This document shows positions 9,430 through 30,912 of a DNA stretch of 64,000 bases, piece by piece. Under the pieces are notes generated by a model. It did no database searches, had not been told where the DNA came from, and saw only the letters and a program-made list of their open reading frames with translations. The DNA is from Ceratodon purpureus. Lineage: Eukaryota; Streptophyta; Bryopsida; Pseudoditrichales; Ditrichaceae. The translations under genes and the position numbers were made by a program. The DNA lies in NCBI GenBank assembly GCA_014871385.1, contig CM026433.1, positions 6,459,585 through 6,523,584 on the forward strand, given 5' to 3'. Positions within the stretch are counted from its first letter, which is position 1, and the number at the start of each line of letters is the position of its first letter.

Positions 9430-9591
9430 TTCCACGGTAATAGGCTCCACATTACCGATCCCGGCGGTCATTTTTGCAACCCCAGCGGCGAAAATTTCTG
9501 CTCACTTTTGAACCCCGGCGCTGAAATTCTCTGCTCTCTGCTCACTGCTCACTGCTCACTGCTCACCGCTGCCACAGTAGCATGGCTGGCG
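9430..9591. repeat. Right end of the left MULE-like element
   Basis: Reading inward from 9591: GTGAGCAGTGAGC-type tandem repeats, then GAGCCTATTACCGTGG about 150 bp in. The 16.5 kb MULE has GTGAGCGGAGAGC repeats and GACCCTATAACCGTGG in the same order. The match in architecture and in the inner block identifies a shared family. Confidence 0.6.
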
Positions 9592-10264
9592 TTGTTCGCA
9601 TCGCGTCATAGGAAGGAGGACCGTAGTTAAATCCGGCAGCCGCGGTTGTGCTCACCGCCTTAATAAATGCTGGGTGCTTGGCCACGTTGAATGCGACGTT
9701 GGCTTCGTAAAAGAAGGATGACCACAACATGTCCAGCTCCTTTCGCTTGGCGATCTGGAGTGCTTCACTCATGTCTTGTTGCCGCAAGCTCCTAGTGGTA
9801 TTCGAACCGGCCCTACTAGGTGCAGCACTAGAGACATTTCGGTCCTCTTCGGTATCATTATACGAGGGTTCGGATCCACCGTACAGAGTGCCGTGTGTGG
9901 AAGCACTGGAACACCCACGTTGAACTGACGCGGGGTAAGTTGGCCTCATACCATCCATCTCCTCCTGTGTCAAAGGGCCGGGAATCTTCCCACCGCAAAA
10001 CTGAAATTTCCTCTTCACTACGGTAGGTGCCTTTTGGCAAACCCTCGAGATATTGGACTCGTCCCAACCATAATGCTGAAAGCACCTAGACTTCACGTAC
10101 GAAAACTTGGTCCTGCAATACACACATTGGGCTACCTTATGTGACAGTGACCCTTCCTGGAGCTTGACCGTAAACCATGGTGCCCACTCTCTCGTACCGA
10201 GTCTCGGAATGGCTCTAGCCGGAGCAACCACTTCAACCGGTTCAACCGCTTCAACCGGTTCCAT
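9592..10264 (-). pseudogene. hAT transposase, N-terminal fragment
   Basis: Starts at ATG 10264 and matches the first 224 or so residues of the intact hAT transposase at 43418 at about 92% identity (18 differences counted by eye over about 228 residues). It includes the BED-type zinc finger (CVYCRTKF, then CFQHYGW). The frame then leaves homology at the MULE-like end (last shared residues MRTT), so the catalytic region is missing from this copy within the window. The TATA-bearing promoter near 10515 is retained. Confidence 0.9.
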
Positions 10265-10499
10265 AGTGAATGATTAGGGAAGTATCGGGACTAATAGGAC
10301 CAATAGTACCAAAAGATTATTATCTGATATAACTTAGTGTGTCTGAAAAGTGCTTGACACATTGATTTATGGAGAGAAGAATTTTTACATTCCCCCCACC
10401 CAAACCAAGTGTCTCCCCAAGCTAACAGTTTCAAGCAAGGAGCCCTCAAGGAGACCCAGGACATGAAGCACGCAAGGAGGTAAGGTGGATGTCAAATCA

Positions 10500-10800
10500 A
10501 GGGGGCAGTTTATATACTGCCGCCCTCGACCGGGCGAGTACTGTCCGGACGGGCGCGACCGAACGGGCGCGCGCGCACCAGAAGATCGGGCGCGCTTCGA
10601 CGCGAACGGGCGGGCGCAGGTGGGTGCGCGCGATTGCAGGCCGCATGGGGGAAGACGGGCGGGGGCGGGCGCATGCGGGCGCGAGCGCTGGAGCGCGAAG
10701 CGGGCGGGCGCGGGCGGAGAACGGCGGGCGAATGCAGGCGCGGGCGCGCACGGGCGCGCACGGGCGGTTGGGTGCGGGCGCGATCGAACGGCCGAGATCG
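10500..10800 (-). repeat. CpG-rich GGGCGCG array upstream of the left hAT gene
   Basis: Irregular repeats of CGGGCGCGAGC/GGGCGGGCGC type fill about 300 bp directly upstream of the transposase TATA box. Long open frames on both strands are compositional by-products. The right-copy counterpart is 42845-43140. Confidence 0.8.
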
Positions 10801-11104
10801 ATTTGGCCACCTCAATTCACTGAGAAGAAGTAACAACGAGAGGGAAAAATGAATAAAATTTAAATAAATTAAAGTATGTGAACTACAAACACGTGCACAT
10901 CTACATAAAAAGGAACCCTATTTTAGTAAAAAAATTGAGAAACATGACAGTGCGAAAGGACAAACCACTCCATTCACACATGTCTAAGAACTAGAGCGGG
11001 TTGTCATTTTGCCCCTCGTGTTTCTGCCATCCTAGTGGAAGGTAAGTCGTTTTAAGCTAACCTCAGGCAGTCTTAACTTAAAATATGGGATAAATTTTAC
11101 TAGT

Positions 11105-11350
11105 TACTGCGTTAATCCAGTTGAAACCACGAGCGCGCTCGCACGCGGCGTAGTTGGGGAGGGGCGCAAGCAGGCGTGCGCGGACGGGTGGGCGCGAGCA
11201 GGGCGCGCGCAGTTCGGCGAGGTCGCGACCGCACGTGGAAAGAGCGGGCGCGGGCGCGCGTTGGGAGGTTCAATGGGTCGACCGCGGACGCGATCGCGCG
11301 GGCGCCAGCAGGCGTGGACGGACGCGCGCGATCCAACAGGCGCGCGCAAT
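11105..11350 (-). repeat. CpG-rich GGGCGCG array
   Basis: Counterpart of 42255-42500 in the right copy. It borders a long A-tract (11371-11400) and the AT minisatellite. Confidence 0.75.
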
Positions 11351-11367
11351 GAAGTTTAAAAGTCGTA

Positions 11368-11406
<39 letters not shown>

Positions 11407-11739
11407 GTTAAGGGAGAGAATGGACTACACTGAAATACCATACATTAGTATGGGAGATTGGAGTACCCAAAAGAAAATGAAATAAAATAAAATAAACGAA
11501 TAGGCATTCGAATTTATAAAATAAACACATCTACCTTAGTTGCGTGTCTCTGCCGTACCATTTTCAACGAACGTCTTCTCCACCGATGGCCATATCTTCT
11601 GCTACATTTGAAACAATGGATATTGACGAATCACCAGCTGAACTCAAGCGCTTAGAGGACCTTTAGGTGACTTTGGGTCGACCTGAAGATTTACTAGCTT
11701 TAGTATATTATAAAAATGAACGGATCAAATGAGAGAAGG

Positions 11740-12440
11740 AATTAAATGAAAGCGTAGTGTTCAAAGAAATGGGGGAAAAAAAAAAAAAAAACAAATTAAA
11801 GAGTGTGGGAATATTAAATAAAAACAAGGGGATAGGATGGGAGAGTGGTGGAATTATAAAAATGAACGGACGAAATGAGAGAAGGAATTAAATGAAAGCG
11901 TAGTGTTCAAAGAAGGGGGAAAAAAAAAAAAAAAACAAATTAAAGAGTGTGGGAATATTAAATAAAAACAAAGGGATAGGATGAGAGAGTGGTGGAATTA
12001 TAAAAATGAACGGACCAAATGAGAGAAGGAATTAAATAAAAGCATAGTGTTCAAAGAAGGGGGAAAAAAAAAAAAAAAAAAACAAATTAAAGAGTGTGGA
12101 GATATTAAATAAAAACAAAGGGATAGGATGGGAGAGTGGTGGAATCATAAAAATGAACGGACCAAATGGGAGAAGGAATTAAATAAAAGTGTAGTGTTCA
12201 AAGAAGGGGGAAAAAAAAAAAAAAAAACAAATTAAAGAGTGTGGGAATATTAAATAAAAACAAAGGGATAGGATGGGAGAGTGGTGGAATCATAAAAATG
12301 AACGGACCAAATGGGAGAAGGAATTAAATAAAAGCATAGTGTTCAAAGAAGGGGGAAAAAAAAACAAAAACAAATTAAAGAGTGTGGGAATATTAAATAA
12401 AAACAAAGGGATAGGATGGGAGAGTGGTGGAATTATAAAA
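11740..12440. repeat. AT-rich minisatellite, units of about 140 bp
   Basis: Five tandem units each contain AAATGAACGGACCAAATG, GTGTTCAAAGAAGGGGG, an A-tract and AAAGGGATAGGATGGGAGAG. The right copy has the same family, expanded to about nine units (40740-42110). Confidence 0.85.
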
Positions 12441-12464
12441 TTTATTTGAGTGATGTTGTTGGAG

Positions 12465-13075
12465 TGCTCGGGCGCGTGCAAAACGGGCGCAAGCACTGAT
12501 GGGCGCGAGCGCGTGCGGGCGCGTGCAAATGGAACGAGGGAGTTCGGGGGGAGAAATTAGTTCCATGATATGGTTCCAGTGCTCGCGCGCGAGTATTGAC
12601 AGGCGCGAGCAGTCGGGCGCGTGCAAGATCGGGCGCGAGCGGAATGCGGGAGACATTGTGGGGGGAGGAAGAGTTTCAGAATTACGCGACCGTGCGCGTG
12701 CGGTTGGTTTGACGGGCGCGATCAGGACGCGCGCGCGGGTACGGGTGCGTGCAAATGGAAAAGAGAGTTTGGGGAGAAAAATTAGTTCCTCAACAAGGTT
12801 GTAGTGCACGCGCGCGTGCAATGTCGGGAGCGAGCAGTCGGGCGCGTGCGAAATCGGGCGTGAGCGGAACGACGGAGACACCGTCGGGTGTTTCACATTT
12901 CGGTATCCGTTCGCGCGCTGTTGGTGCGACGGGCGCGAGCAGTTTGCGCGCGCGCGTACGGGCGCAATCCTGGATTTACTCTTGCTGGGGGCAGGTTTGC
13001 GGGCGCGCGGGTACGCACACTACGGGCGCGCGCAAACGCGCGCGTGCATGCGGGCGGGTTCAGAGTTCAAATCCA
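12465..13075 (-). repeat. CpG-rich GGGCGCG array
   Basis: About 600 bp of irregular GGGCGCGAGC/GCGCGTGC repeats, counterpart of 40030-40640. No gene is recognisable. Confidence 0.75.
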
Positions 13076-13475
13076 CGTAACATAAAATTCAGTCCATAAG
13101 TTAAATACACTTACAATAACTTAAGTTCTCTTACCATGACTTAAATCCACTGACCATATTAAACATTTTGGTGTGCAATAGAGATATTTATACACTTATC
13201 ATACAATGGAAGGAGATGAGACAACCGGCGGAATGAATAACATGATTGGCAATCAAAAAAAGGGAGGCCAATGTATTATGTAGGGAGAATAAAAGCGTCT
13301 TGAGAACCACGACAATGATTTACAAAAGAAAATTATCATCCATTGTTTGAGTTTAACAAACATTAAACATGTGAATGTAATCCTAAACCTATCCAATTCC
13401 CTATGCCTTCTACATGTATTTATATTCCGATATCTTTTTACAAAACGTGGTCTTCACTCATGGATCTCCACGACG

Positions 13476-14424
13476 TCACGTGCCCGGTGCAGAGGAACTC
13501 AATCCACCCTCATCGTGTCGTGCACGAGAGCTACCGGCTCCACTACTTTCTGCCCCATCCTTGGCGATGAGTTTCCGCTTCGCAGAAAGGGTTCTCTTTG
13601 CTATGCCATCTCCTCCAAGCATTGCTTCCATGAAGTTGTTGTTGCGCATCCGACGGAGCACTGTTACGACCTCCGGAGTATGTTGCGCACATAGGAAATC
13701 CACGGCTTGAGTCTTGAACAATATATCCCATTCAGATTCCGCGGTTTGTATCTCATTAGCGATCTGGAGATCCTCTTCAGTCATGTCGTGCAACTCCTTG
13801 ATCTGATCCGCAACCAACTTCCCTTTGGAATTCCACTTAAATCCAAGAAGATGGGGGCCGTACTGGAATGTACGAGTTTGAATATCCCAGTGCCCATGTA
13901 GCACTTGGTAGAAGAAATTCCTCCTTCCCTCGAGTTCGTCCTCCGTCCCGCCCTTGATGAGTTCGTGGCAGATCCTTACAATCTCCGCAAGATCCTGGTC
14001 CCACCTCCACTGATTGCTCATTTGTTTAACATAGGACTGGTGCATTCCCATAAGCCAATTCCAAATCAAGTCCTCACCCCACTTGTCCGGAAAGTCAGGA
14101 GTATTTTCCTTATTTTGCTCCCAATGCGGTGGCATCCAATTCACTAGGCCGAATTGCTCATAAAAACGCTTGTGTAAGGGGGCCATACATACTGCACACC
14201 ACCGACGTATCATGGCATGGGTAATCAAGCATTGTGGATGATACATGCACTGACAAGATCCCAATGACCAGCCCCCCTCTGGCCCAAATAGATTGGTACA
14301 AATGGGACACTCGGTTCCATCCAACACATACTTCTGTGGATTGGGCCAGAGCAATCTTGGCTTCATATTACTATACTCAGTGATCTTCTCATTGGATATG
14401 GCGGTCTTGTACTCCCACTCCAAC
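13476..14424 (-). pseudogene. RING-like gene, C-terminal half (left copy)
   Basis: Homologous to the last 310 or so residues of the intact gene at 35934-38537. It retains the zinc finger (CPICTNLF, then SCQCMYHPQC, then CAVC) and the stop codon at 13476. The coding sequence is interrupted at 14424/30904 by the MULE insertion; the N-terminal half is at 30913-32523. Upstream of 14424 the frame reads into MULE end repeats. Confidence 0.9.
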
Positions 14425-14557
14425 GAGGAAAGTTCGTATGTGAGCGGAGAGCGTAGAGCGGAGAGCGGAGAGCACAGAATGGAGAGCACAGAATGGAGAG
14501 CACAGATTTGACAATTAGCAAAATTTTCAAAAGCAAAGTAGACCCTATAACCGTGGA
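14425..14557 (+). repeat. MULE left terminal inverted repeat region
   Basis: The outer 29 bp is inverted relative to the right end, followed by about 60 bp of GCGGAGAGC/ACAGAATGGAGAGC tandem repeats. The inner block GACCCTATAACCGTGGA (14541-14557) recurs inverted at 30666-30682. Different numbers of tandem units at the two ends move the inner block to unequal depths. Confidence 0.75.
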
Positions 14558-14599
14558 AAATTACTAAATTAAGGCTTGATTTTGTCGTGTCACGACTTT

Positions 14600-17440
14600 C
14601 CATGAATTTTTGTTTTGTCTGTGTTTTTAGATTAAAAGTGTTAAAAAGGATAGAAGTTATAGTTAGTTAGAAGTTATTGTAGACATTAGGTTAGAATGTT
14701 AGAAATAGAAATAGAGGAAAAATAAAAAGTGTTAAATTAGTTAAAAACACTTAATTAGTATTGTGTTAGAACTCCCTTAAAGGTGGAAATCTCAAGGCAA
14801 AAGTGGCGGAAACTGGGAGTGTGGGCCGCATCAAGGAGTAGAGGAGCTTTGCCATGGTGGAGCACGATCAACAAGGAAAGCGGAAAGTAGGGAGGTTGAT
14901 AACCGGACCTGGCAGGATCCGACTCGCTCCTTTTTAGGGTTTCAACCAGGATATTGGAAAGGCGGCTAGGGTTTAACTCCATCAACCTTCCAGGTTGTTT
15001 CTCGGGAACCGCCGCCACCTTTTTCAGAAAGTGGACCGGTGGAACTGCCACGTGTCCCGCGGAAGCCGGACGGCAGTCAGTTGACCGCCGCCACTTTCTT
15101 CGAATGGCGGGCCAGGTGGGCGGCCACGTGCCGCAATTGCCGCGGACCTTGGGCACGACAGCAAGTTGACCACTCCCTCGGTGACGGAGAATGCGGAGGT
15201 CGTGGGTCGGTCCGGCGTGGAAATCGGGACACGTGTCGAGACCGGGCCGGTGGCGACTCCACTTGCTCCACTGACGGCGCTGGGCCGCAAGGAAAAGCGG
15301 AAGCTGAAGAAGATGGAGGCCAAGGAGAGGAAGAAGAGGGGCAGTGGGTAGATTCTAGGAGTTAATTTTGGTAGGAAGCTTCGGATGCAAGTAGTCGTGG
15401 TAGGTAGAACCAGGGTAGTTAGGTGAAGTTAGACTTTATTGTTTTTGTCTATTTCCTAGTTTCGGGCCTTGGCTCTTCGGGTAGCGGAGAGTCAGTCTGC
15501 TGCCACGTGGCCCGTGATTCTGATCACGCGGCCCGTGGCTCAGTAGTTTAAAAGGGAGAACCCTTGGGGTTTTCTCTCACCATTTTGCGATGTTTGTGTT
15601 CTTTTGTTCAATTCAGGCTTTATGTTTTACTCCACATGTGTCTTGAGTTGTTTTCTTGAGTGCATGAGCAAAGTGAGTGGTCCCTCCTTCCCATTCTTGC
15701 TGTTTCCGAGTTTGCACCGGTCCCCATAAACGCTGTGTAGGTTAGTTAGGCTAGTATTCCGTGTTAGGTCAGTATGGGCTGTGAGCCTCTATTAAGCAAG
15801 TTTTAAAACATCCCTAATTCAAGCCGTTGCTCTCATGCAAGGGGGTACTTGGTGAGCTAGCAGCCGCCCCTGTTTAGGATTGGTGTACTTGCTTAATCGG
15901 TTCAGTATCACCCCCTGTGCGGAAGGTGCTAGACGGAGGAACACTAAGGGTGGAAAGGAGGAGAGGGCGGAAAGTGGAAGTGGAAGATACCAGACTTGGG
16001 TGCGGAGGGTGTACTCCGGCTCGAGGATACTTGGGGATTCGAAGGGGGTACTTCGGTACAAGGATTTGAGCTTCACCATTTCCACAATCCACCCCAACAT
16101 CGGAAGCGTGGAAACGTGGCCCTACTCTGTGTGACCTGCGGAACACAGCATTGTACCCGTTGTGAGGGTAGTGGCCCATTTCCGCATTTCCACCCCTTCT
16201 GGGGGAGTGGTACGAGACTTGAGTGGGACAGTTTTCCGTGAGAAGGCTGCCCCCATCGAAACACCAGGCGGAGGGAGTATTAGTGTAGGAGTACGTGAAG
16301 TAGGGAGAAAACCCTGATAAATCAGTGGGCGAAATCCCCAGAAATAACTACAAAGCCTCTTTGAGCATTCTAGCTTAAACCGCTAGAATTATTCCAGTTA
16401 CGGAAGTCGGTTGGTGACGGAAAAGTGGAGCAGTAGTGAAGATTCCACTAGTAATCTCAGAGATGCTGTCATAGAGTAGCTAACTACGATGGGTTTTCTG
16501 GGATGTTTCTGTGTACATAGTGATGGGCTCTAGGGTCGGAATTCTGGGCCTGTAGATTGTGTTAAGATAAGGTATGTTTCTTGTAGTCTTTGGGGGTAGA
16601 TAGTGTTCCACTTTCCACCTTTGGATAGTGGAATCTTCCGTGATAGGTAGTATCCGGGATTCCTCAATCCCTTAGATTTTGTAGCCTTGGGTGTTTCTTG
16701 GGTTTGTGTTTGGGATTTTTATGTGTTTCTTTTAGATTATCTCTTCTCTCAGTTGTGTTTACAACTGCAGGTTCATCGTGGGAACGAACTTGGCGCGGTT
16801 TTAGCGTGTTACGCGTTATTTAGGTTATTTAACTGAATACGTTACCACCGTGCTACGACAGATTTTGACACTTTTTTTTGGAAAAGAGTATATTACCGTG
16901 GAGATCAGGGTTATCTCTGGTAAGAATTTGTTACGTTTGTTCTCTAAGATACAAATTAGGGCTGATGTCATGATGACGTCATGCATACATTCCTTTAGAT
17001 TTGTCATGGATTTAGGCAAGTTTTAGATGAAACAAATAATTCTTTCGTAGGATTATGTAGATGCACAAGGAAATAAACAAATTTCACAGAACATAAAGGA
17101 GGCAAGGTTTGAAAACTTCCTGGAATATTTCAAAATTCGTGTATAATATCTTAACTGCTGAAACCAAGATATACCTTATTAGAGTCCTTGTCTTCATCGA
17201 AGATTACCCTCTCTTCCTAGGCAGCGAAGCATCTTCATTTGAGTGATACAAGTACGAGATTTTCATCATGAAACAACACTCGGTAAGCTGGGTTCCAGAG
17301 AAGGAGGTCACTCTTGGTTTCTTGAGCTTGTTTTTAGGTGGCGTATTAGGATAGTGACACAGTCTGTATGCGAAGGTAGCGTAGGAGTTCGGGGGGGTCA
17401 ATCTGCAAGCTTGCGTGGAACGTTTTAAGACTACAACAAT
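14600..17440. other. MULE interior without a supported gene
   Basis: AT-rich to 14750, then moderately GC-rich with several short overlapping frames on both strands (14750-15360, 15820-16240). None looks like a protein. A TTTAAAAG promoter-like motif sits near 15547, and a GT-rich stretch with small imperfect repeats spans 15400-16800. The block could contain a remnant of an inserted retroelement end, but I see no primer-binding site or paired repeats that would show it. Confidence 0.4.
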
Positions 17441-17455
17441 TTAGTGTGTTGCGCG

Positions 17456-17842
17456 ATGCCGAAGGTGTGTAATGCGAGATCGAGGAGGACAAGAGCGGCT
17501 GTAGGTTTGCCCCCAAAGGCACCGGCGAGTTATGAGGAGCTGCGGCCGTGGCTGCTGGAGGTGGAGCGCGCCAGGGAACGAGGCATGGACCTGCCACCAT
17601 TTAGGCACATCGGAAGCCTCCATGTTGGTGAAGGTGAATGGCGTTGGACAGTGCTTTGTACCAATGAGCTTCTCCGTATTATGGAGTTGTCCCTAATCCC
17701 GTATCCCTTGCTATCGAACGTCGATGAGAATCCAGTTGTTCAGCTGCCCGAAGTGATCATATCGGATGGCGAAACTTGCTGGTTTGATATCGACAAGAGT
17801 TGGACTGTATATCCTTCGAAGGATAAGTACTGTGAAGTCTAG
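17456..17842 (+). CDS. Unrecognised 128-aa protein, MULE cargo
   Basis: ATG at 17456, stop TAG at 17842, one exon. Basic N-terminus (ARSRRTRAA), a charged helical stretch (LLEVERARERG), and a C-terminal half rich in aromatic residues with PEVIISDGE, which resembles a SUMO-interaction motif. The family is not recognised. It is the leftmost recognisable gene in the MULE, facing the methyltransferase-like gene. Confidence 0.45.
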   Translation: MPKVCNARSRRTRAAVGLPPKAPASYEELRPWLLEVERARERGMDLPPFRHIGSLHVGEGEWRWTVLCTNELLRIMELSLIPYPLLSNVDENPVVQLPEVIISDGETCWFDIDKSWTVYPSKDKYCEV

Positions 17843-18340
17843 CGGGGTGTTCGAATACATTCCTTTAGATTTGGTCATTTATTGGATCTAGATACGAGTA
17901 TTCCAGCATGATGGTTTTAGATAATATAGATGATTCTAGAAATAAGAAAAGAAAAAGCAACTAAAGGAAATGGTCTTAGAAGTCCGTGGAATATTTCAGA
18001 GTTCGTGTACAATAATGGAGTAGCAGAAATCAAGATGTACACCAAGTCAAGAATAGGTAACATGGCTATGGAAATGTGGGATTTTGAATGAGTAAAATAT
18101 AAACTACAGCGCAATATTAATTTTGAGCCTTTCTTTTGTAACTTTTCATTCTTCAAATTATATTTTGAGCATTACAGTTGTGACATTTCATCCTTTACAT
18201 ACACGGAGACGAATTGGAAATGAGAATCATAACAAGTTTAGGTTTAGGGTAGTAGAGTAGACGAAGGATTACGCAATGAACTCCAATTAAATCAAATCAA
18301 ATCAAATAAAAACAATGAAAGACCGAAGCCTCCTTCTAAC

Positions 18341-21300
18341 TCAGAACATGCTACAGTCGCTACTTTCACTCTCAGAACTAGATGACTCTGAATCTCCTTC
18401 TACCGCCTCGTCATCAACGAATAGAAGGGCCCTGGGATCAAAAGTAGTTGGCCGACTAGGAACATATGTGAGGGCTCCAGATTGAAACGCCTGTGCTAAG
18501 TCCTCTGCGTAGTCCGGAAGTATGAAAGGCTGAATCGATCTGGAATGAAGACGCCACAATGGAGTGGACACTGATGTTGGCCCACGTGGCGGTGTTGCCG
18601 AAACTACTCTGCAATAGAAAACCGATTGTGGTTAGATTGAGTACGTAGAGGTGCAAAAAGAAGCAGTGCTAGGATATTTTGAACAAAGAGTAGAAGACTT
18701 ACACCACTTCTCAGGCCTTGCTCTCTTTGAAGGCGTTTCGTTTGCTGCTGCTGGCCTAGGATGTTTCGGAGGGCCCATGTCGGATGGTCTAGCCATGTAC
18801 TGTTTGAGAAGGGCGTTGAAGATGGCTTCGTCATCTTCAAAAGCTACAATGTGTCGACCAATACCCTGGCAAGCCTTGATGGAGGCCCCTGGAAACTCGG
18901 AGAGTAACAAAGAATTTAGAAACGGTTGAAGAAACGAGAGGAAAAATGAAACAGACATATGTATTGATAGTTACCTGTTCCGGCATTCCAGTCGAGGACT
19001 ATGTCTCCGGGCTTCGAAAGCTCTCCAATTATGCTCTGCATCATCTCAGGGGCTTTCTCCCTTGGCCCTCTCCACGGAATGTCCCCATTCATCTGTTGCG
19101 ACTCCGCATCGGTCCAGTTAAAAATGGCATCACTCTCGGTAATGTTGAGGACCCCATGTATCAATTGTGATTTCTTCGTCTGGAAAGAGAAATTACTGCC
19201 ACGACGAACGTAGACGCGAATCCAGAACCGCATAGTCTGCACTCAAGCAAAACTAGTGAGTACAAATAAGGAGAAAGGTTATCACTAAGTATAGAGAAGG
19301 AAATGTTTAGATGTAATTACCAAGTTCTCGGGGTTCGTAGGAGAAGTCAGGCCGTGAACATTGACGCCCCACCAGTCCTTGTAAAGCATGAAGTCATGTC
19401 CCTCAGCTTCTTTCTCGATATCCTTAGCCAACTTCTGATCACTATTGTAGATGAGGCAGAGGGCACCATCTGTCTGCAGGTATTGATCTGCAAAATGGAA
19501 GATATCGTACACATAATCCTTGTAGCGAGAGTTCCAAGGCGGAATACTTGTGGGGGGGTCAGAAACGGAAGGGATGGGAAGATCCTCAGGGATGTCGGCA
19601 ATCATCAAGTCGACTCCCTGATGGTTCTCTTGTTTGCACCGGTCCGGAACTCTATTTTCGTGGCCTGCTCCGAACTTGAAGAAACAAGGAAGCAGAGTTA
19701 GAAACTAAAAAATGAATAGAAGTAGATGTATGAGAGAAATGTCTGAAGAACAAAAAATACCTTCCGAATGAAGTCTTGAGTCTTGATTCAATCTGGGTCG
19801 CCGCCACCTTTTCTCTCTTGTCTTTTATTTCGCCGCAACATTGAATCCACAGATGAGTTGAAGACAGAAACATATGTGGAATTTGAAGCTCCAGTGGAAG
19901 AAGTAATATGGGGAATTTCAAAGAGTTTGGCCTTCCTCTGCTCAATGAGACTTCAGGAGATCTGAGAAGCACTAATGGATGATAAAGCATTCGCAGTGGT
20001 CGAAGTTGGCACTAAGACGTCTGCGGTTGGAGAAGCGTTGGGTGTCTCCTTTCCTGGTGCGGAAGACTCCGCACCAGTATCCTGTGAGCCCAAGGACTTC
20101 GATCCCAGCTTTCGCAGTCGCCGTGCCCGCCCTTTCTTCGGTGGAGGTGCAGATGACTGATCCTGAAGGCCTTCGGCCTCATCAGAACCGTCTCCAGAAT
20201 CATCGACTGCTATTGATCCCACGTCAAGCTGAGCTTTGAGCTCCGTTTCAGACTCAATAACGAAACCTCGAATGCAATCGAGGTACCAACAACCAGCGGC
20301 TAGGTGGGGCGAGCTGTACCTCTTCAGCTGTAGAGGAGTATAGATACACTGATCAGAGCCTCTCTGAATCCACGACACAAAGTATGAAGGGAACTTCTCA
20401 GGGTCAATTGCACCTTTTGGAAGCAGCTCTCTCTTGAAGTACCTAATGAAATTCAACTGCCATGTATCAGAAACATATTATTGACAATGAATAAAAGCGA
20501 AAAGGGAAAAAGATACGAAGTCGTAGTTCATAAATGTCCTACCGGTATGTCACACGCTTGACAACATCTGCTGCTCCCGAAAAGGTGGAAAAATTAGACT
20601 TCTTATCAAAAGGCTTTTCTGCGCGGGTACTAATAAATGCGAGGAAAGCCTTTTCCCAAAGGAGAATACGCCAACTCTCCACATATGCGTCTGGCCGCAA
20701 CAGTCCCGGGAAGGACTTCCACTTGATGACAAGGTTCTCGGTCTTACAGATGTCATCAAACTCCCGGGTAACAGCATCCTCCAACTGCCACAGAAAGGTA
20801 ATGTCGTTGAGGTAAACATGGACATTAAACAAAGAAGAAGAGGTTTCAGTGATTGTTACGAAGTTTGAAGAGCTGTACCGCAGCCCAGAATGTGGCCTTG
20901 TTCAACCAGGGGTCCAACTCGGCCTCCTTAAATTCTTGGGGCAGAAATCTGTAAGATTGTCGTGCACTTGGTGAAGAGTTCCACCACTTCAGCCAACGGG
21001 CTTTAAATCTGGCATCAACATTTGCGGGAACAATCCTCTGAAGCTTATCCACTGTCATCTCGGGCTTGGAAAAATCACTGTAATGCCGATTGATCTGGGA
21101 AGAGAACAATACATGATAGGGAAGATTAGATTTGGAAATAGTTATTGGAAAGTAAAGTAGAAATGTCAAGAAACTCACCTCCGCAAAGAAGTCATCACCG
21201 TTTTTGGGTTTGGCAATGGTCAGGTACTTGGTGAAGTCCTTCTTCTTAATGTAGTTGATCATGTCGGACAAAGCAGCAGACATAGCATCCCAAACACCTG

Positions 21301-21446
21301 CCGCAATTTGCTCTGTAATGGGTGTCTTCTCCTTGTAGGTCCTGGCAGCTTCGTCTGAAGCAGCCACGATTTCTCTCTGGAAAAAAAACATTATCAACTT
21401 CTGAGTGTACAGAGCACGGCAATTGATGACATTTAGAATCATGAGG

Positions 21447-21482
<36 letters not shown>

Positions 21483-22370
21483 AGAAGTGCTTACACGATA
21501 AAGAAATGCGATGAAGATTTTGGTTGGCAAAGTAAACCATCCAGAAATCGATGGTTTGTGATTCAAACATAATTGATACTCCGCTGGTGAGAGCAGATCC
21601 TTGAATTCCTCCAATTTCATCACACCAAAAGAGCGAATACGAAAGAGTTTTGCAGGAAGATTACTCTTCACATGATCATTTTCTGTAGACCTGCTCGAAG
21701 ATATGGTAGTTAGTAAAAGCCCTGAAGTGGAAGTACAAGCAGCTTTCAAGAAGTGGGGACAAGAAGTAGGGAAAAAATTCTTACCAGTTGATGTCGTGCA
21801 TGGCATGAAGAAGGTTTCCCACATGACCGCGGGGGTCAAGAACAATGCAATGCACGGAGATGTGCCAAGCTGGATCATCATAGTGATGGTTGTTGATATG
21901 TCTGAACCATGCGGCAAGGCGATGGTTACCTTCCCAGACATAGAACATTTTCCCGGAGAACTCCTCCCAGTCCGGGTCGGCCAAGAGCTCATCTTCGAAA
22001 GCATCATTGACTTTTTGCCAACAAGGGCTCCAGTCAGCCTTGATCTCCGGAGTGACTTCGGCTGTCTTCTCTTCGTGGTTGTACATGGAAATGTACATGA
22101 CCTGGTCCCCATCTCTATATCCATTGACAAACTCGCGCTCCAAATGTTGAACTCCCATTTTGCCTACAGGTCGCACTCTTGCCATTGACTGCATCCTGCA
22201 GAGGGGTACAAGGATACGGGACTTCGTCTTTGGGAGTATTCGGAGATCGTTGATGACGGTTGTAGAGTCCAATTTGAAATGTTTTCTGTGTTCCAATTCA
22301 CTGTCCAGTGCATTCGTCAAATCAGTAGGACAAGATGGCGCTGGCAACTGATCCTGTGTTTGAGTTACCT
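18341..22370 (-). CDS. Spliced ParB-like / DNA N6A-N4C methyltransferase-like fusion gene (decayed)
   Basis: Exons fit GT/AG rules and keep phase: 22368-21785, 21690-21495, 21376-21179, 21094-20879, 20784-20543, 20442-19761, 19674-19321, 19236-18975, 18888 to about 18708, and 18608-18341. Any further 5' exon is not found. Exon 1 encodes a ParB/sulfiredoxin-like domain (FYVWEGNHRLAAWFRHI, then ISVHCIVLD). The middle 400 or so residues are unrecognised. The C-terminal exons follow the motif order of beta-class DNA methyltransferases: a DPPY-position motif ADIPEDLP, a GALCLIY strand, EKAPEMMQSIIGEL (motif X), and the SAM-binding motif VLDWNAGTGASIKACQGIG followed by acidic FEDD. DPPY is replaced by DIPE, so activity is doubtful. 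Two in-frame TGAs lie in exon 6 (19953-19955 and in its last 40 bases). The ParB-plus-methylase order is known from bacterial and phage proteins. It ends in an acidic Ser-rich tail. Confidence 0.7.
21450..21481. repeat. Poly-G tract (32 bases) in an intron
   Basis: An uninterrupted G run within the intron between the exons ending 21495 and starting 21376; it is poly-C in the transcript. The length may be unreliable in an assembly. Confidence 0.85.
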
Positions 22371-22559
22371 GTCAAAGGTCATACGTATTTAGAGTTGATT
22401 CGAAGACAATGAACGTAAGCAAATCAAAAACAATAAAGTAGAATAAAAGAATTACTTCTCAGACTGGTACATCTCTTTTGAGAACACAATCAGCTACAGC
22501 AGAAATAAGTAGAGCTTAGGCCACTATATGCGTCGTGCACGACTATAATACTCCCTAGC

Positions 22560-24916
22560 CTATCTACAGTTCCAGTGACGACGCCTCTTCCAAAATCGCC
22601 TGGTTTGTTGGACAGGGCATGGCAATACCGCCGGGAGGGCGAAGACAACATGGGCTGGCCTCCTCACTCTAATAGGCGAGGATGGAGAAGGTGGAGACAT
22701 AGGCGGGGTCCTAAGTCTTGGAGAGGTAGGCATGTAGCCCGGGGATGTAGGCTCATAGACAGGAGACGTAGGCATGTACTGAGGAGAGTGGACCTCGAGA
22801 GGTCCACTACCTACACCTACAGGGTTTCCTAAATCACATTTACAGAAATAGGGCTGATCAAATGAATCCGAGAGGTCGGAAACATTGATCACTGAGGTTG
22901 GGGAACTGATGGACAAGGGTGCATCTGAGAATACCTAGAGAAAAAGAACAAAAAAATTGTCAGATTCCCAACTAAGCTTTCAGAAGAGAATTACAAATGA
23001 TTATGGAAGTTCAATAAAATAGGCTATGTTCAAATCAGAAAACAAATTCAAACAACTTACCTCAGTTTCTGCTGGAGTTGGGCCAACAAAGTTACTTGCG
23101 GTGAATTGCTCTGTGAGCTCCTACAACACAAAGGGTATGCATCTTATGAGATTTCAATACAAAGCATAAAATAAACAGAATAAAACAAAGAGTTGCAGAT
23201 TAAACAAATCATTTTCCCAATATTAAGATTAATTTTTATTTTAAAAAACATCACACTCCCCCCCCCCCCCCCCCCCCCCCCCCACATCCTCGGGCCCTCC
23301 TGGTGGGGGGGTTTCGGATCCGAATCTGCCCATGCGAGGGCTCCTCCCCCAGGGCCAAATCCCTCCCATCAACCTCCACTGCTGCACTCGGGGCCGCAAG
23401 GGCCGCGGCCATGGCTGTAACAAGGAGGCGCTGCATACCAAAACTCTCCCCCCCCAAAATCCTCCCCTTCCTCGTGGAGGGTTCCGGATCCGAATGCGCC
23501 CATGCGAGGGGCTCCTCCCCCAGGGCCTTGAAATCCCTTCCATCAACCTCCACTGCTGCACTGGAGGCCGCAAGGGCCGCGGCCATGGCTGTAACAAGCA
23601 GACGCTGCATACCAAAACTCTCCCCCCCCCCACTCCCTCCCCCATCTCCCATACAATATTCTCCACGGCCTTTACTTGAAAACCTTCTGCGGATTCACTC
23701 CTCTCTTCCTGTACACCGACGCCCACAACCCCAACAGATCTATCTACCCACAATTTGATTAACTCCAACACCATAACAAGTGTGCTCACCTGATCAATAG
23801 CAGGGCCGCGGTCCGAGCCACCACCCTCACTCGCCATCTCCTCCTCTTCACGCTCCTCTCCTCGCCCCTCCATCTCCTTCTCGATCTCTCCTTGGGCCGC
23901 GGGTGTATGCTGCACTGGGGCTTGCGAAGAGCCTTTCCCTCTCCCACCTCGACCCTTACCCCTCCCTCGACCCCTCACCTCAGCCCTTCAACCTCTCCCT
24001 CGGGCCGACCCCTCATCCATGTCTTCTTCTCTTGGGCCTACCGCAATGTCGAGCGAATCACTATCCTCCCCACTAGTTTCAGTAGGACTTCCAGGGTGCC
24101 CTCGCCCCGCTCGTGTAGCAGCAAGTGCTTTCCCACCTTTGCCCGCCTCCATAATTTGGCGTCTCGCTCTCCTAGCGACTTTTCTCAACGTCTCATGATC
24201 TGACTCCTCGCCCGTATCCACTTCTGGCGTCTTCTCCTCTACAACCTCTTTCTCAATCCTAATCCAGTCGACAATCTGCGCAAATGTTCAAGACGAAGAC
24301 GAAAATTACTACTCGACTCTTATTTTGATCCACCATTCAGTTTAATGCGGCATCACTATTCTAAACAGTAAGAAAATGAACCCGCAGCAAAGACAATACT
24401 TCTAATCTAATAAAACTCTAAAAAAATACAGAATGTACATTTAGCATTTTTTAATTTATGAATTATGAAACTTACCACATCTGTGTTAGAATGGTCGCCC
24501 GACTGAGAATCCGTCCCTCTAGTTGAACACTCCTTGAATCCGAAAGAAGGTTGTGGTGTCTCCAAAGTCGGACTGCAATTGAACCCTAGCTCTTCCGTCA
24601 TCTCCAGGTGTTTCTCTCCGCTACTTATTTCCTCATGCTCCTCATGCTCAACTGCGGTATCCTCTAAATCCTCATCTTTCACCTCTACTATGGACTCTAG
24701 AATGAGTTTACGGATGCTACAAAATTTAATTGCCACAGGCAGCCCAGCTCCTCGAACCTTCAGAGGTGCACTCAAAAGGTTGCATTTCGACTTTGACTTC
24801 CTACGTAATTCTCTCCTCTTCCTCGATCTCTTGTTCGTAAAATCTGTACCACCTGCTTTCCTTCTAGGTTTAGGAGTGACATAAGTGGAGGGAGCTGACC
24901 CTCCACTCTCCTTCAT
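22560..24916 (-). CDS. CTD-heptad protein, long form (MULE cargo, decayed)
   Basis: Four exons in phase: 24916-24476, 24275-23790, 23120-23061 and 22934-22560. The N-terminal exons encode a basic (PKPRRKAGG, KRSRKRREL) then highly acidic and RG-rich protein (GRGRGKGRGG). The last two exons match the short gene at 3117-3761: PAETE at the splice junction, VINVSDLSDS, heptads YMPTSPV, YEPTSPG and YMPTSPR, the SP-rich linker and the basic tail. An in-frame TGA lies at 23988-23990. The stop at 22560 is a TAG where the short gene has CAG and reads 11 more codons, so this copy is truncated at the very end. The intron between exons 2 and 3 holds a tandem duplication and a poly-C tract. It faces the transposase gene across a divergent promoter region. 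Confidence 0.7.
23258..23283. repeat. Poly-C tract (26 bases) in an intron
   Basis: An uninterrupted C run, poly-G in the transcript of the CTD-heptad gene and so able to form G-quadruplexes. It lies next to a tandem duplication at 23300-23640. Confidence 0.85.
23300..23640. repeat. Intronic tandem duplication, about 155-bp units
   Basis: Two GC-rich units share GGATCCGAATCTGCCCATG-type sequence, CAACCTCCACTGCTGCACT and CCGCGGCCATGGCTGTAAC. Long frames across it are shadows. Confidence 0.8.
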
Positions 24917-25525
24917 GTGTCTAACTAACGAGATATCTCTCCTCACAATATAGCTCTCCTTCTAACTTCTCTTCCTCTTATATATCTTAAACCTTCAACT
25001 CCTCTGACTCAGCCCTAAATACTTACCTTAATCTAAACCTACTTATATTAATATTAATTATATATAATTGCATTTTGAATTAAAGCTGATGAGATCAATC
25101 TATATTGGAAGATAATAAACCAAGCTCAAAAAATATAAAAAGATTTGAATTAAGCACTCGAATACTTGTATTAAATATGGAGACAACTAACGGCTCAGTC
25201 TAATCTCACCAAACTTCACATCAAATAGAATCGGTTCCATGATTCATATATTAAATGCGTACTTCTAAAAATCCCTACCCTTCTAACTCGGGCCTGCCGC
25301 CTGCAGAAAGCAACATTCTAATTAGTTAGCGCCGTCTCTCTTTAATCATACATTCGTTACGTAACAGAATGAATCATTACCTAGTCGTCCACATGGACAT
25401 TCCTACTTCAATAAAATGATCAACAGCGATGCATCATTCCTCTCACTTTGCTCTCGCGATACCGCTTCGCTAGTACACTCACTCTTCTCTCTTCTTCCCC
25501 TATAATCACTGAGTTGCCTGCGAAC
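24917..25525. promoter_or_regulatory. Divergent intergenic region between CTD-heptad and transposase genes
   Basis: About 600 bp of AT-rich DNA separates the minus-strand ATG at 24916 and the plus-strand ATG at 25526. No clear TATA box is visible. The head-to-head arrangement suggests a shared two-way promoter; this is inference from layout. Confidence 0.4.
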
Positions 25526-28500
25526 ATGGGGATGGTCTGTCTGCACGCCCAAGGCATGGGCATCCCCCTTAGGTTTCGCGTAGATGACGATGGTCTAGCT
25601 ACAGTTTCCTCTCTTCGCCTGAGTCTCAGATTCCATTTCCGTGAGGATTCCATCAGTATAGAGGAGGAGATCTTTGATGACGTTACTGCGGAGGTTACCC
25701 ACACCCTCGGGCAACCTTCAATGAGAGATAAGAATAATATGTTGCAGTGGAGACTCTTCCCTGGATCCTATAGAGTCTATGGTCTTACTGATTCTCTGAT
25801 GGCTGCATCCACTGAGATCCTCACCCTCCGTCGCTCTTCTACTTGCACAATTCAGACTCCCTTACCTCGTGATGTCAAGGTCAAAGTCGAGCCTGGTACT
25901 GAAACTTCAGACGTAGAGAAACCTCCCCCTCCGTCAGTCATTTCTCTCTCCTCTGATGACGAAGTCAGTCCCGTCAAGTTGCTGCCCAAGGTCCACGCTG
26001 ATGCTCCTCCTTCCAATGTCTCTCCTCCATTGTCCCAGGTCACAGTTAGCATTGTTCCGCTCTTTCAACAGCTTGCAAAGGCGCGTGGGTCAAAAAACAT
26101 TTTGAAGAAGATAGACTATTCCACTATTAGACAAGAGAGAGTAGAGTACTTGCCTGCGAAGTTTGATGGTCCGGTTCTTTTTGAGTTGCCACCAGCTGCT
26201 GCAGGATCCTCTAAGCTCGCCGCCAAGTCAATGCAGGGAATGGACAAACGATACGACGGACACTTGTGGACCAAGACCATCACAACAAACATCAAAAACG
26301 ACTTCGGACTCTCTTTTCGAAGTTCCAACTGCGTCGGATGGCTGCGCTGCACCAACGAGGAGTGTGACTTCCTGAAGCGTGTTCCCAAGATCTTCGAGGT
26401 TAACGAGACTGAGTTCGAAGGCTGTACCCTGCAAGCTTTTGTCATGGACCAGCCTCCTCCATCTGACTCCACGCTAGTGTGCAAGGTATGTAAAGAACCT
26501 CCATCATGTGTAGCTACATGCGAGGCTAAGATTTATTACGTTGTGGGCAAACCCAATCAGACTAGAGCTTGTATTCACATAGGAACACATCATCATCCAG
26601 TGAAAGTTGGAGACTACAGAGACTCTAAAGCAGAGATTACTAGTAGCTTAATAGAAGAGCAGGTAGAGATGAACAACAAAGCAACAAAGAGCGTCGTTGT
26701 CTTGGAGGCGAGCAAACTCCTCATCGGGAGCTACCTTCTACAGCCCGAGGATGCACCACCGAGGAAGCTGACGATGGAGGAGCTGGTTCCTGTTCTGGAT
26801 CGATGCAGAGACATGGCGTCACCAAACATCCGCAACAAAGTCGCCACCTTCAAAAAATTTAAAAGGTACGGCATCATGGACGGTATCACCAAGCTCCGTG
26901 GTAACAGTCTCTGGGCGTATGTCCAGGAGAATAGGTTTCCTGGTCAGGGATCTATGCGTGACAAAGTCTTCGTCTTCAAGATGTCGGAGGTCGGGCCGGG
27001 AAGTGGTGTCGACTTGGTCAGCCGAATGCAAGCTGGTGGCGACTTGGAGAACGCATGGATCATGTTCGACCATGTAAAACGCGTCAAAGACTGGTCGACG
27101 ATGGCGTGCCATGTGTACGATGCCACCTACTGCCGCGTGATGACAATCGCCACTTGCGACATGCAGTCCGAGGACACGGAGGCCCAGCTCGTCTTCTGGA
27201 AAAACCTGAACCTGGTCATGGAGATCAATGGCGTTGCAGCGCCGAACTTCAAGGGGTTCATGGCGGATAACGCACAAGCGAATTGGAATGTCGTGCGAAT
27301 CCTTTACGGCAATGGCAACAAAGAGGACCCAATGGAGGACCGGGAGAGGTCGTGCTTGTTCCACTGGACTCAGAACATGGTGGCGTATACGTAGAAGCAC
27401 TTCCTCGAAGAACTCTGGGAACAGCACAAGAAGATGTGCACTCATTACAAGAATGCTACCAGCATGGCAGAGGCGGAAACTCTGTACCACGCGTTGCGAG
27501 CCTGGTGGGCATCCACCGGGGTCGTTGGCGAAAGCGGACTCATCAAACTCGATCAGTGGCTTTCATTCTGGCACCACCGCTTCCGCCAGTGGGGGGGATT
27601 CATGACCGAGGTATGATCTCTGCACTCTGTTTTGATGTTTTTCATATTGGTTTCCTAGCCCTAACCTACAAAACTCTAATCCGTTAATCTAATGGCTCCT
27701 ACTGTCAAAATTGCAGAAATTCACGGAAGAAGAACTCACAGAGATGCGAACCTGTAACCTCGCCGAAACAATTCACAACAAGTGGCTCCAAGCTTCAGGA
27801 AACAACGGGAACGACCTGTACGTTGCTATTGTGGACGATTTCGTTCGGGCTTTTCTACAGGTTGTTAACTACTACCTGTTCCTCAAAGGTGACCTCGGCG
27901 GAACAGGACCGTCCAAGAAGGAACTCAGGCTCCGGATGGCTGAACGCAACGCGAAGAAATGGGGAAATCCTACACTGCTCGACAAGCCCATGCTCGATAT
28001 GCCAGGCGCGGATGAGTTCTGCACCCGTCAGCATATCATGCCTGGAGCGGAAGTGTTCGGTTCACAGAAGCGAAAAGCCGATGTCCCCATCAGCGCTGAC
28101 GAGGAGTCTCATCGCCCAGACAAGACAAACTTCTCACGCCCAAGAGGCCCAAGAGGCCCAAGACGTGCCGTCAGGGCTCGCCCTATGCTGATGCCCGTCA
28201 TTGTCGAAGACGACTCCGAACACGACACCGAGGTAGAAGGTACCCAATCTCCTGCCCAGGAAGTTGATTGCCCTTTACCTTCACCTGTGAAGAAGGGCGG
28301 CATTTGCCATGTCAACGCGGTTGGAAGAAACCAAGGTCGACGTGAAGGAGTGGCACATCTCGAGACTTCACAAACTTTCTGCGAAGTGCTGCTGGGCCCA
28401 AAGAGCTGAAACGAAGAAGAAGTGCACTGAGAGAATCGTCAGGGGGCCCCATTGCACAGCTGCCCCGACCTACACTGGGCTTTGGACTAACTACCGCACG

Positions 28501-29212
28501 AACACAGTCGAGAAGACAGAGTTCTTCATCTGCTCCGATGATATTGAGCGCTGCGTGAAAGGCTCTAAGCGCAAGTGGGTAGCACACTACTCAAAGGACC
28601 AAGAATTCCCCTCCGTTCCAGAGGTGTGGCCAGTGAAACTTGGTACTAACCTAGAACTCACTGAGATTCTTGCCCTCGAAGCAGCGGGCTTTCAACTTCC
28701 GCCGAAGAAGCCGGTCTGCCCAATTCTCCTCTGCCCCGCCCCCTGCAAATCTCAGCTCGGTGCCAGTCCCTGCAGACGCTGACCGCTACCCAGGCAAGAG
28801 AGAAGGTAAGATGGTGAAGCGCACTGCCACTCGTCCCAATCCGGCGCAGCGACTGTCCATGGGTTCCTCCGAGTCTCTTAAAGCGCGCCTCCGTTCCGTC
28901 ACCATGATACCTGAGCCGGGCCACGGTTGCATCATTGGGCTGGATTCGGGCGTCGCTCTACACATCACACGGTACTAGATTACCATCAGTTCTTACCCTG
29001 GTTGCACTTGCCCAGCATTCAAGAAGACGATGACTACGTTCCGTGGCAAGACTCTGTTCACGTATTGTAAGCACCTATACTACATACTCTTGAAGGTCTG
29101 CAACCGTGATCCCGAAGCGGAGCTTTACATCCATGCGCCTACCTTCAGCTTCAACGAGGTCAAGCTACTCTTAGAGAGTGGAATCTTGCGTCACCCCTTC
29201 GCGAAGAAGTAG
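25526..29212 (+). pseudogene. Mutator-like transposase with WRKY/GCM1-like and SWIM zinc fingers (decayed)
   Basis: ATG 25526. An intron is predicted at 27611-27716 (GACCGAG/GTATGA to TTGCAG/AAATTC). Order in the protein: an N-terminal region with SVISLSSDDE, a SUMO-interaction-like motif; a zinc-binding region (CVGWLRCTNEEC, then CKVCKEPPSC, then CIHIGTHHH) of WRKY/GCM1 type; a DDE core with VYDATYCRVMT, FMADNAQANW and CLFHWTQNM; PVIVEDDSE in a linker; and a C-terminal SWIM finger (CTCPAFKK, then YCKHLYYIL, the CxC...CxH pattern). In-frame TAGs at 27392-27394 (T-stop-KHFLEEL) and 28976-28978 (RY-stop-ITISSY) sit where Gln is likely, and the frame shifts between about 28.3 and 28.8 kb. SWIM plus DDE fixes the Mutator superfamily. 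Probably not autonomous as it stands. Confidence 0.85.
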
Positions 29213-29463
29213 GTAGCCCTCCTACTTTAGAACTGCCATTTCCACAATGGCCATTTGTCACGTAGTGAATGATTTTAGTAATATACCATGTACTAAGTCC
29301 GCAATACGGAAGCTATATTGACTTTTTCATTATAAAGGCTTTGTCGTTCACATTGATTGCACTCTATTTCAAAACATTCTATCTTGAACAAATGCACTAT
29401 ATACTTGGTATCCCCTGACATGTATCTTTTATTACAGCAAACATATACTTGTTATTAGATGTC

Positions 29464-29916
29464 TTAATCTTCAAACCTAACACGTTTAGGGTTGCCCACT
29501 ACACTATCAGCAGGACTGCCAGCCGCTGACTGTACTACAGGACAAACTACATTCGCATTCACTTTCGTTTTCACACTTGGCAAGTGTCCTTGGTAAGAAC
29601 GTTTCAGCAATGGCCCACCTCCCCGCCTCCGATTCACTGATTCCCTGGAATAGGTTCCCCTTGGGATCTTTCCAACCTTCGAGTATGCATGTGGTTGCAA
29701 AGGCACATCTGCGTCCTCCTTTAGCACTATGATATCATCCGAATTTCCTGAACGTGGAGGATCAGCTCTTACATCCGGTTGTACGTCAACATCCGTTGTC
29801 AAAGGACGCCCTTGGCTGTTGGCCATCACCTCTTCTTCGTCCTCCACCTCAACATATGGTTGAAATGGACAAACATCGTCAGCAAGTGATACAACAATAT
29901 CTCTGACGTCTTCCAT
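29464..29916 (-). CDS. Unrecognised 150-aa protein with acidic N-terminus, MULE cargo
   Basis: ATG at 29916, stop at 29464, intact. The N-terminal third is acidic (VEVEDEEEV). It contains SDDIIVLKEDAD, a strong SUMO-interaction-like motif, then a basic region (SVNRRRGGG) and ends PKRVRFED, a possible nuclear signal. The family is not recognised. It is convergent with the transposase gene, 250 bp away, inside the MULE. Confidence 0.5.
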   Translation of the reverse strand: MEDVRDIVVSLADDVCPFQPYVEVEDEEEVMANSQGRPLTTDVDVQPDVRADPPRSGNSDDIIVLKEDADVPLQPHAYSKVGKIPRGTYSRESVNRRRGGGPLLKRSYQGHLPSVKTKVNANVVCPVVQSAAGSPADSVVGNPKRVRFED

Positions 29917-29939
29917 AGCTGATGTCCCGCACTACGGAA

Positions 29940-30660
29940 AAGAGCTTCACATAACACCAACACAAAAGAGGAAGAGACATTCCATACTCTTATCTTAAAT
30001 ATCCCTGAAGAAGATGCTTGGCGTCCTTGAAAATCGGCTATTCATTCATTTAAAAGTTGTCATCCTCCTAAACTGAATGGAAAAAGATGAGAGTTTAGCA
30101 GAGATCATCTAGCATTTAAATTTATTTTTTAAAAATTAGAAAATGAAAAAAATAAATAAATAAATAAAAAAACATTTATAAATATGAAATTAAGAATATT
30201 AAAGTAAACAAAAGCAATATTTAATATGAAGGTTGAAAATAATATGAAGTAGATTAAGAAATTGAATGTGAAAATAAAATGAAGGAGAGAATTAAATGAA
30301 AGGAGGCTTTGACCCCTCTAACAAGATAAATAGAATAAAGAAAATTAATAAAAAATACAAGACAAATATTAAAAAAAATAAAAATAAAAAAAAAGAATGA
30401 GAAAGGCATGTAGACTATGGTGGATGAATTATAGCAATGTTAAGAAAATGTTACGATATTAAATGTTACTTGATCCCTCTGAAGAGCTTCAATACCAATA
30501 CATTTGAAGTAGTAATTTGCATATAAATGTGAGGGGATAAGGGGAATTAATGAATGCCTGAACCAGTTAGAAGGAGCCGGAGCATAGTAATTGGTGCACA
30601 TCAAAAAATTAATCACCAAGAAAAGAGAATACGAACTACAAATTCAATGAAAATATTGTA
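29940..30660. other. AT-rich MULE subterminal region without genes
   Basis: Very A-rich, with simple runs (AAATAAATAAATAAA near 30160) and short direct repeats. No frame of interest. Confidence 0.6.
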
Positions 30661-30665
30661 ATTAG

Positions 30666-30903
30666 TCCACGGTTATAGGGTCAATTAAATTACTAAAATT
30701 AGTAACTTTCCAAAAATATACTGAGAATATTCGAATCTTCTAATTTTATAGTATATTTTTAGTAAAAAAATTGCTATTTTTAGATTTTGTCCCCGATTCT
30801 GTGCTCTCCGCTCTCCAAATCTCCGCTCACCGCTCTCCGCTCTCCAAATCTCCGCTCACCGCTCTCCGCTCTGCGCTCTCCGCTCACGTACAAGCTTCCC
30901 CCC
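30666..30903 (-). repeat. MULE right terminal inverted repeat region
   Basis: Reading inward from 30903: the 30-bp end, CGGAGAGCG tandem repeats (more units than on the left), an AT-rich spacer, and the inner block at 30666-30682 that is the exact inverse of 14541-14557. Confidence 0.75.
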
Positions 30904-30912
30904 CACTCCAAC

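Follow-up and report, generated by a model that had tools for sequence, protein, structure and literature searches.

A Mutator-like transposon in moss DNA carries an intron-containing gene with a beta-class methyltransferase-type domain and an altered motif IV

What does the intron-containing gene inside a transposon of the moss Ceratodon purpureus encode, and could its product modify DNA? We analysed a stretch of 64,000 nucleotides (assembly GCA_014871385.1, contig CM026433.1, positions 6,459,585 to 6,523,584 of the forward strand; "the window", to which all positions below refer), in which an original prediction, made from the letters of the sequence, had seen a ParB-methyltransferase fusion gene carried by a plant-type Mutator-like element. 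The gene lies on the minus strand of a 16,477-bp element, and the ancestor of its C-terminal domain was a beta-class amino-methyltransferase of prokaryotic or phage type. The residues retained and replaced in its motifs suggest a protein that binds DNA and perhaps S-adenosylmethionine (SAM) but probably does not catalyse methyl transfer.

Splice borders were placed by hand on the translated minus strand between 24300 and 18300. Ten exons (E4 to E13, 22368-18341), with GT-AG borders recognized by translation and splice-site reading, join in frame, and up to three further candidate exons (E1 to E3) lie upstream of E4. The ten exons are as follows.

21785 to 22368, minus strand: E4, carrying EGNHRLAAW at 21933-21907; placed by splice borders, without ParB profile support
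21495 to 21690, minus strand: E5; splice borders
21179 to 21376, minus strand: E6; splice borders, no Pfam match
20879 to 21094, minus strand: E7; splice borders, no Pfam match
20543 to 20784, minus strand: E8; splice borders, no Pfam match
19761 to 20442, minus strand: E9, a low-complexity linker with two in-frame TGA codons (19955, 19790); splice borders and stop positions
19321 to 19674, minus strand: E10, start of the methyltransferase domain, with motif IV DIPE at 19596-19585; profile and splice borders
18975 to 19236, minus strand: E11, a motif X-like segment and motif I VLDWNAGTG (18999-18975, the last Gly completed by E12); profiles
18703 to 18888, minus strand: E12, the remainder of the SAM-binding half (GRHIVAFEDDEA); profiles and splice borders
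18341 to 18606, minus strand: E13, an acidic tail and the stop; its acceptor is slightly unusual

A Pfam scan of the middle exons E6 to E9 matched no family. Poly-G/poly-C runs of 32 bp (21450-21481, in the intron after E5) and 26 bp (23258-23283) also occur in this region.

The methyltransferase ancestry is supported by several libraries. E10 to E12 match the Pfam family PF01555 (N6_N4_Mtase) with 30.2 bits (E 5.3e-7, cut-off 26.7); the query in this search, as in those of PHROGs and NCBIfam, was the joined protein with two surplus residues at one junction, and the junction-corrected core likewise exceeds the Pfam cut-off, with 34.2 bits (E 3.2e-8). DNA-methyltransferase families in PHROGs give matches as good as 3e-8, and the CcrM model of NCBIfam gives E 4e-4 with 19.4 bits, far under its own cut-off of 830. 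DpnA (E 4e-4), CcrM (0.018) and RsrI (0.033) are matched among PDB sequences, while tblastn against phages returned 284 records (best E 1e-5) and a plasmid search 352 (best E 9e-4), none of them spanning 80% of the methyltransferase query. A profile of 21 DPPY-type viral relatives scores 66.5-67.0 bits over the domain, a level far from the 3.6 bits at most reached by 200 shuffles, and HHalign gives 98.3% against a methyltransferase profile over residues 4-224, compared with 0.1% when the same domain is set against ParB as a negative control. Profile alignments place motif IV first, then the X-like motif and then motif I, the order of the beta class, as had been predicted.

Motif IV is where the protein departs from its relatives. 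We compared it with 80 viral loci, the best 80 of 211 confirmed (from at least 600 stretches), picked by likeness to this domain; five in which a regular expression found no motif IV (L036, L038, L055, L056 and L086) were left out of the profiles and the tree, L038 reading DLPY and the other four being cut or broken ahead of the motif. The patterns among the 80 are L-x-x-AD[IV]PYN (38 loci), D[LIM]PY (16) and DPP[YW] (21), with an aromatic residue at the last position in all 76 readable loci (4 of the 80 being unreadable) and D.PE in none. The moss protein reads VDLMIADIPEDLP around this motif, and its core, DIPE, lacks the final aromatic of the (D/N/S)-x-P-aromatic pattern of active beta-class enzymes. 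Since 38 of the 80 relatives read D[IV]PY, isoleucine at the second place is ordinary and only the change from Tyr to Glu is unusual; the earlier view that DPPY had turned into DIPE need not hold, D[IV]PY being native to those relatives. In the beta-class family the motif-IV aromatic stacks on the flipped base, and because Glu takes its place here, catalysis appears doubtful.

Motif I (WNAGTG) retains both glycines and has Asn where the family has Phe (F-x-G-x-G), and downstream of VLDWNAGTG the joined protein reads AFEDDEA, retaining acidic residues after the next strand, where related enzymes carry an acidic residue. In a tree with the 75 remaining viral rows the query stands beside the D[IV]PY group (support 97/90), yet on an end branch 6.92 long, whereas HMMER gives 67.0 bits with the DPPY profile against 39.0 with the D[IV]PY profile, so that tree and profile score favour different source clades. 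Identity over the domain is at most 25% to these 75 rows, with short stretches of up to 44%.

The element that contains this gene is delimited by the following features.

14425 to 30901, no strand: complete Mutator-like element of 16,477 bp; inverted repeats and target-site duplication
14414 to 14424, no strand: left target-site duplication CCCACTCCAAC, 11 bp; sequence comparison
30902 to 30912, no strand: right target-site duplication CCCACTCCAAC; sequence comparison
14425 to 14510, plus strand: left terminal inverted repeat, with many GAGAGCGGA-type units; outer limit set by eye
30816 to 30901, minus strand: right terminal inverted repeat; inner limit set by eye
25508 to 29212, plus strand: transposase-like gene, with DDE-like motifs read by eye and one in-frame stop near 27394

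The terminal inverted repeats match over 52 bp at 85% without gaps, or over about 86 bp with a gap, and the 11 bp of the target-site duplication are the longest stretch common to both flanks. The corresponding empty site, in the other arm of a surrounding hAT palindrome, is single and uninterrupted and differs by one base (37560-37680). Mutator-like elements make target-site duplications of 9-11 bp, and the inverted repeats together with the 11-bp duplications match such an element. Inside it, the transposase-like gene on the plus strand stands divergent to the methyltransferase-type gene on the minus strand. Its by-eye motifs are what we take to be DDE-like and C..H motifs; a SWIM-like CxC..CxH finger at 28979-29212 gives E 0.11-0.12 with PF04434, under the cut-off, and a single-sequence AlphaFold2 model of the gene (mean predicted local distance difference test, pLDDT, 33) is too poor for use. 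The original prediction of an intron-bearing gene inside a transposon and beside a transposase-like gene is supported by borders, exons and domain match, and its plant-type Mutator-like assignment agrees with the repeats and duplications but finds no Pfam match for the transposase domain. A 137-residue stretch at 17429-17842 (plus strand; MPKVCNARSRR...), without a Pfam match, is a possible third gene of the element. Scanning the window for Rfam families and tRNAs returned nothing.

The other half of the predicted fusion is not substantiated. EGNHRLAAW resembles the G-x-H/R-R box of ParB, and a six-frame search of the window finds this pattern a single time, which by itself is no evidence. Neither E4 nor E4-E5 matches a ParB family in Pfam, PHROGs or NCBIfam, and the E4 part finds nothing among PDB sequences at E 5; tblastn against phages returned four records at E 2, three of them hypothetical proteins and one unannotated. 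We built a core ParB profile from 16 of 18 phage ParB sequences (two were dropped), with leave-one-out scoring for 14 of the 16. It gives no score with the E4 part, while the 14 left-out ParB domains score 59-140 bits; with its inner stretch removed, the E4 part scores -2.0 bits, a value reached by 287 of the 344 reported shuffles (500 made). HHalign against a larger ParB profile gives about 0%, and in eight pairwise ParB comparisons 24 of 300 shuffles equalled or exceeded the observed score in one case and 70-278 of 300 in the others. The single-sequence AlphaFold2 model of this part, with a mean pLDDT of 39, is again too poor for use. With every library and our own profiles negative and the positive controls working, a ParB domain in E4 finds no support.

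Both motif sets of the original prediction are thus present in the spliced exons (EGNHRLAAW, DIPE, the X-like motif, VLDWNAGTG and AFEDDEA), but the ParB identity of the first is unsupported, and the profile search that it proposed returned PF01555 above its cut-off and not PF02195. The spacing had been put at about 650 residues and is about 590, from EGNHR to DIPE, in the joined model. Within the viral stretches compared, a ParB-like frame lies near 4 of the 38 D[IV]PY loci and 8 of the 80 overall; the four (L025, L034, L035 and L059) have a D[IV]PY methylase with the frame nearby, and in L025 and L035 the ParB-like frame is itself a ParB-methylase fusion.

Upstream of E4, a second joined frame raises the question of how far the gene extends. 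The candidate exons, and a homologous exon in a neighbouring insertion, are these.

23790 to 23837, minus strand: E1, candidate first exon (MASEGGG...); GT donor, its link to the rest inferred
23061 to 23120, minus strand: E2; AG/GT borders
22563 to 22934, minus strand: E3, an exon resembling the heptads of the RNA polymerase II C-terminal domain (CTD) (YMPTSPV..YEPTSP); in-frame TAG just past 22563
3239 to 3761, plus strand: CTD-like exon homologous to E3, in a neighbouring insertion whose terminal repeat is related to that of the element

E1 to E3 (23837-22563) form a separate joined frame running from MASEGGG... to ...RRRHWNCR and then into an in-frame TAG. E3 matches the Pfam family Rpb1_R (RNA polymerase II CTD repeat) with E 0.0011 and 19.6 bits (cut-off 20.3). 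The homology of 3239-3761 with the E3 region, at 67.6% DNA identity, extends to 22524, and comparison of E3 with 3288-3722 over 123 codons of this one pair gives 0.156 non-synonymous (dN) and 0.805 synonymous (dS) substitutions per site, a dN/dS of about 0.19, which suggests purifying selection on the CTD-like exon.

The neighbouring, or sister, insertion interrupts the left copy of a hAT transposase gene and continues past the left end of the window; terminal-repeat-like sequence at 9532-9545 marks its end near 9580. It holds no homologue of E4 to E13 at significance. Beside its end, an open reading frame of 178 residues (8786-9319) aligns weakly to the motif X-I region (E11). In four scoring schemes, 4-13 of 1000 shuffles reach its score with E11, a comparison chosen after the fact; the corresponding counts are 35 of 1000 with E13 and 3 of 300 with the last 330 residues, and phmmer gives E 0.47, the best of a control region being better at E 0.19. 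With a post hoc choice and a phmmer value no better than the control, it can be treated as no more than a candidate methyltransferase copy.

Both insertions break the left arm of the hAT palindrome (9589-14424 and 30902-44093, centre near 34240), the 16.5-kb element sitting at 14424/30902. The arms are 91-96% alike over the ten longest pairs, both contain tandem repeats of about 139-147 bp, and the hAT transposase at 43409-46861 matches PF04937 and PF05699. The palindrome also holds a RING-finger-like gene, at 35856-38534 in the right copy (zf-RING_2, E 2.4e-4, below the Pfam cut-off) and at 13479-14666 in the left copy, within which the 16.5-kb element is inserted. Adjoining the hAT transposase, 47652-49322 is a divergent protein-kinase-like open reading frame (Pkinase, E 1.6e-7, 31.4 bits, cut-off 31.7).

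Is the methyltransferase-type gene still intact? Splicing around the two stops in E9 would have to use a donor that scores, at best in the right phase, 1.2 against 4.7-12.2 for ten donors of the gene itself. Owing to these two stops, the present copy appears decayed and is probably no longer functional, unless such weak sites splice them out. The observed/expected CpG ratio is 0.62 across the gene and 0.93 across the window, and in six pairs of hAT-arm stretches CpG sites, holding 10% of the bases, take 28 of the 105 transitions. This depletion and excess fit methylation-driven decay without proving it.

The motifs lead us to propose, at about an even chance, that the gene encoded an accessory protein of the element that bound DNA and perhaps SAM and was probably non-catalytic. 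A 16.5-kb Mutator-like DNA transposon carries an intron-containing gene divergent from its transposase-like gene, and in the encoded protein the aromatic that clamps the flipped base has given way to Glu and the motif-I Phe to Asn, with the motif-I glycines and acidic residues kept; the borders of the element, the exon structure as read from the sequence, the methyltransferase ancestry and the motif change are established. On our proposal the protein would have acted on the element's own DNA as a non-catalytic factor, the CTD-like exon, if part of the gene, offering a possible link to transcription. Several points weigh against this proposal. The gene model is a reading of the genomic sequence, in which the connection of E1 to the remaining exons is conjectural and the E3-E4 splice putative, and the joined frame of E4 to E13 is open except for the two TGA codons. 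No Pfam transposase model matches the transposase-like gene even at E 10, so that the superfamily call rests on element structure, plus motifs read by eye. The methyltransferase part was seen as a single copy: in viral_contigs neither it nor E4-E9 nor the transposase-like frame has a close relative, genome_contigs gave none for the methyltransferase, and no relative near enough to check conservation of the Glu came from either. The non-catalytic function, finally, is predicted from motifs. A bolder version, in which a methyltransferase-derived protein with an altered motif IV and a Pol II CTD-like module at its N-terminus would serve a Mutator-like family by reading the family's own DNA or countering its silencing, the module being common to sister elements with different cargo, seems to us distinctly improbable.

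Three other accounts of the gene compete with a non-catalytic accessory protein. Mutator-like elements often capture gene pieces, and the gene may be such a passenger, a captured gene or fragment never used by the element and now decaying. The two in-frame stops agree with this, as does the finding that nothing in the related neighbouring insertion is significantly homologous to the methyltransferase exons, but the frame is otherwise open across ten exons, the CTD-like exon, possibly of this gene, looks selected in its one pairwise dN/dS, and the divergent layout beside a transposase-like gene resembles that of a two-gene autonomous element; we consider it unlikely. Somewhat less doubtful is an active beta-class enzyme, encoded by the element family and methylating adenines or cytosines in the element's DNA, for self-marking or for protecting transposition intermediates, with DIPE a product of decay in this copy. 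Fold family and motif order are retained, the stops suggest that this copy has deteriorated, and transposon-encoded methyltransferases are known, namely retrotransposon DNMTs and the Dam-like ones found in DIRS elements (PMC5890265). Tyr to Glu, however, takes two base changes while the gene is mostly open, the motif-I Phe is changed too, and self-marking or protection of element DNA would be weakened as a role because the catalytic aromatic is missing. Whole capture of a ParB-methyltransferase fusion from a phage or bacterium we regard as very improbable: the box-like EGNHRLAAW and the existence of phage ParB-methylases, including those frames near D[IV]PY loci, speak for it, whereas the negative profiles, with working controls, and the distance between box and motif IV speak against it.

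The significance of the gene depends on the state of motif IV in intact relatives. Should the Glu persist there, a transposon would have made a regulator out of a DNA-methylating enzyme of prokaryotic type, and the ways in which transposable elements cope with silencing by the host could be studied in a tractable example. Should the aromatic persist instead, a beta-class enzyme making N6-methyladenine (6mA) or N4-methylcytosine (4mC) would be added to the repertoire of Mutator-like transposons, a matter of interest for the debate on where these two marks in plants and algae come from.

How does the gene compare with known systems? With the PF01555 enzymes (DpnA, CcrM, RsrI and the D[IV]PY phage enzymes) it shares homology, the IV-X-I order, the motif-I glycines and the acidic residue; it differs in having Glu for the motif-IV aromatic, Asn for the motif-I Phe, the low identity to the viral rows given above, eukaryotic introns and a transposon context. 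Among plant elements, the Arabidopsis transposons that carry VANC are VANDAL Mutator-like elements. VANC proteins are anti-silencing proteins of Arabidopsis transposable elements (PMC5735166); set beside the moss gene by description, they offer a parallel only, that of a plant accessory protein acting on transposon chromatin. The N4CMT of bdelloid rotifers is, like the moss domain, a bacterial PF01555 enzyme in a eukaryote with introns, captured and working as a host 4mC writer; it belongs to the host, keeps SPPY intact and has a chromodomain, whereas ours lies in a transposon, reads DIPE and shows no other Pfam domain (PMC8885841). Plant 4mC has been attributed to MpDN4MT1a/b (PMC8566409), and a Bacillus cereus ParB-methylase with nicking activity is described together with ParB-like DNases of phages and plasmids (PMC5512222).

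DNA-modification genes are also found aboard eukaryotic transposable elements. The retrotransposon DNMTs of dinoflagellates and charophytes, shown to methylate CG, and the Dam-like genes of DIRS elements are likewise transposon-borne DNA methyltransferase genes, but they are C5 or Dam-like and reside in retroelements, where the moss domain is of the beta class and its carrier Mutator-like (PMC5890265). Virus-integrated Mariner elements, also DNA transposons with a transposase plus a methyltransferase, belong to another superfamily and carry Methyltransf_26 and C5 domains and a paired endonuclease (PMC3627910). Fungal DNA transposons that encode TET/JBP dioxygenases, compared by description, likewise have a DNA-modification enzyme aboard, though another enzyme in other hosts (PMC12730594). 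A Mutator-like element with a gene of the present kind was not found in the open-licence papers searched. DNA methyltransferases encoded by transposons are already known, and what the moss element adds is a Mutator-like, beta-class version.

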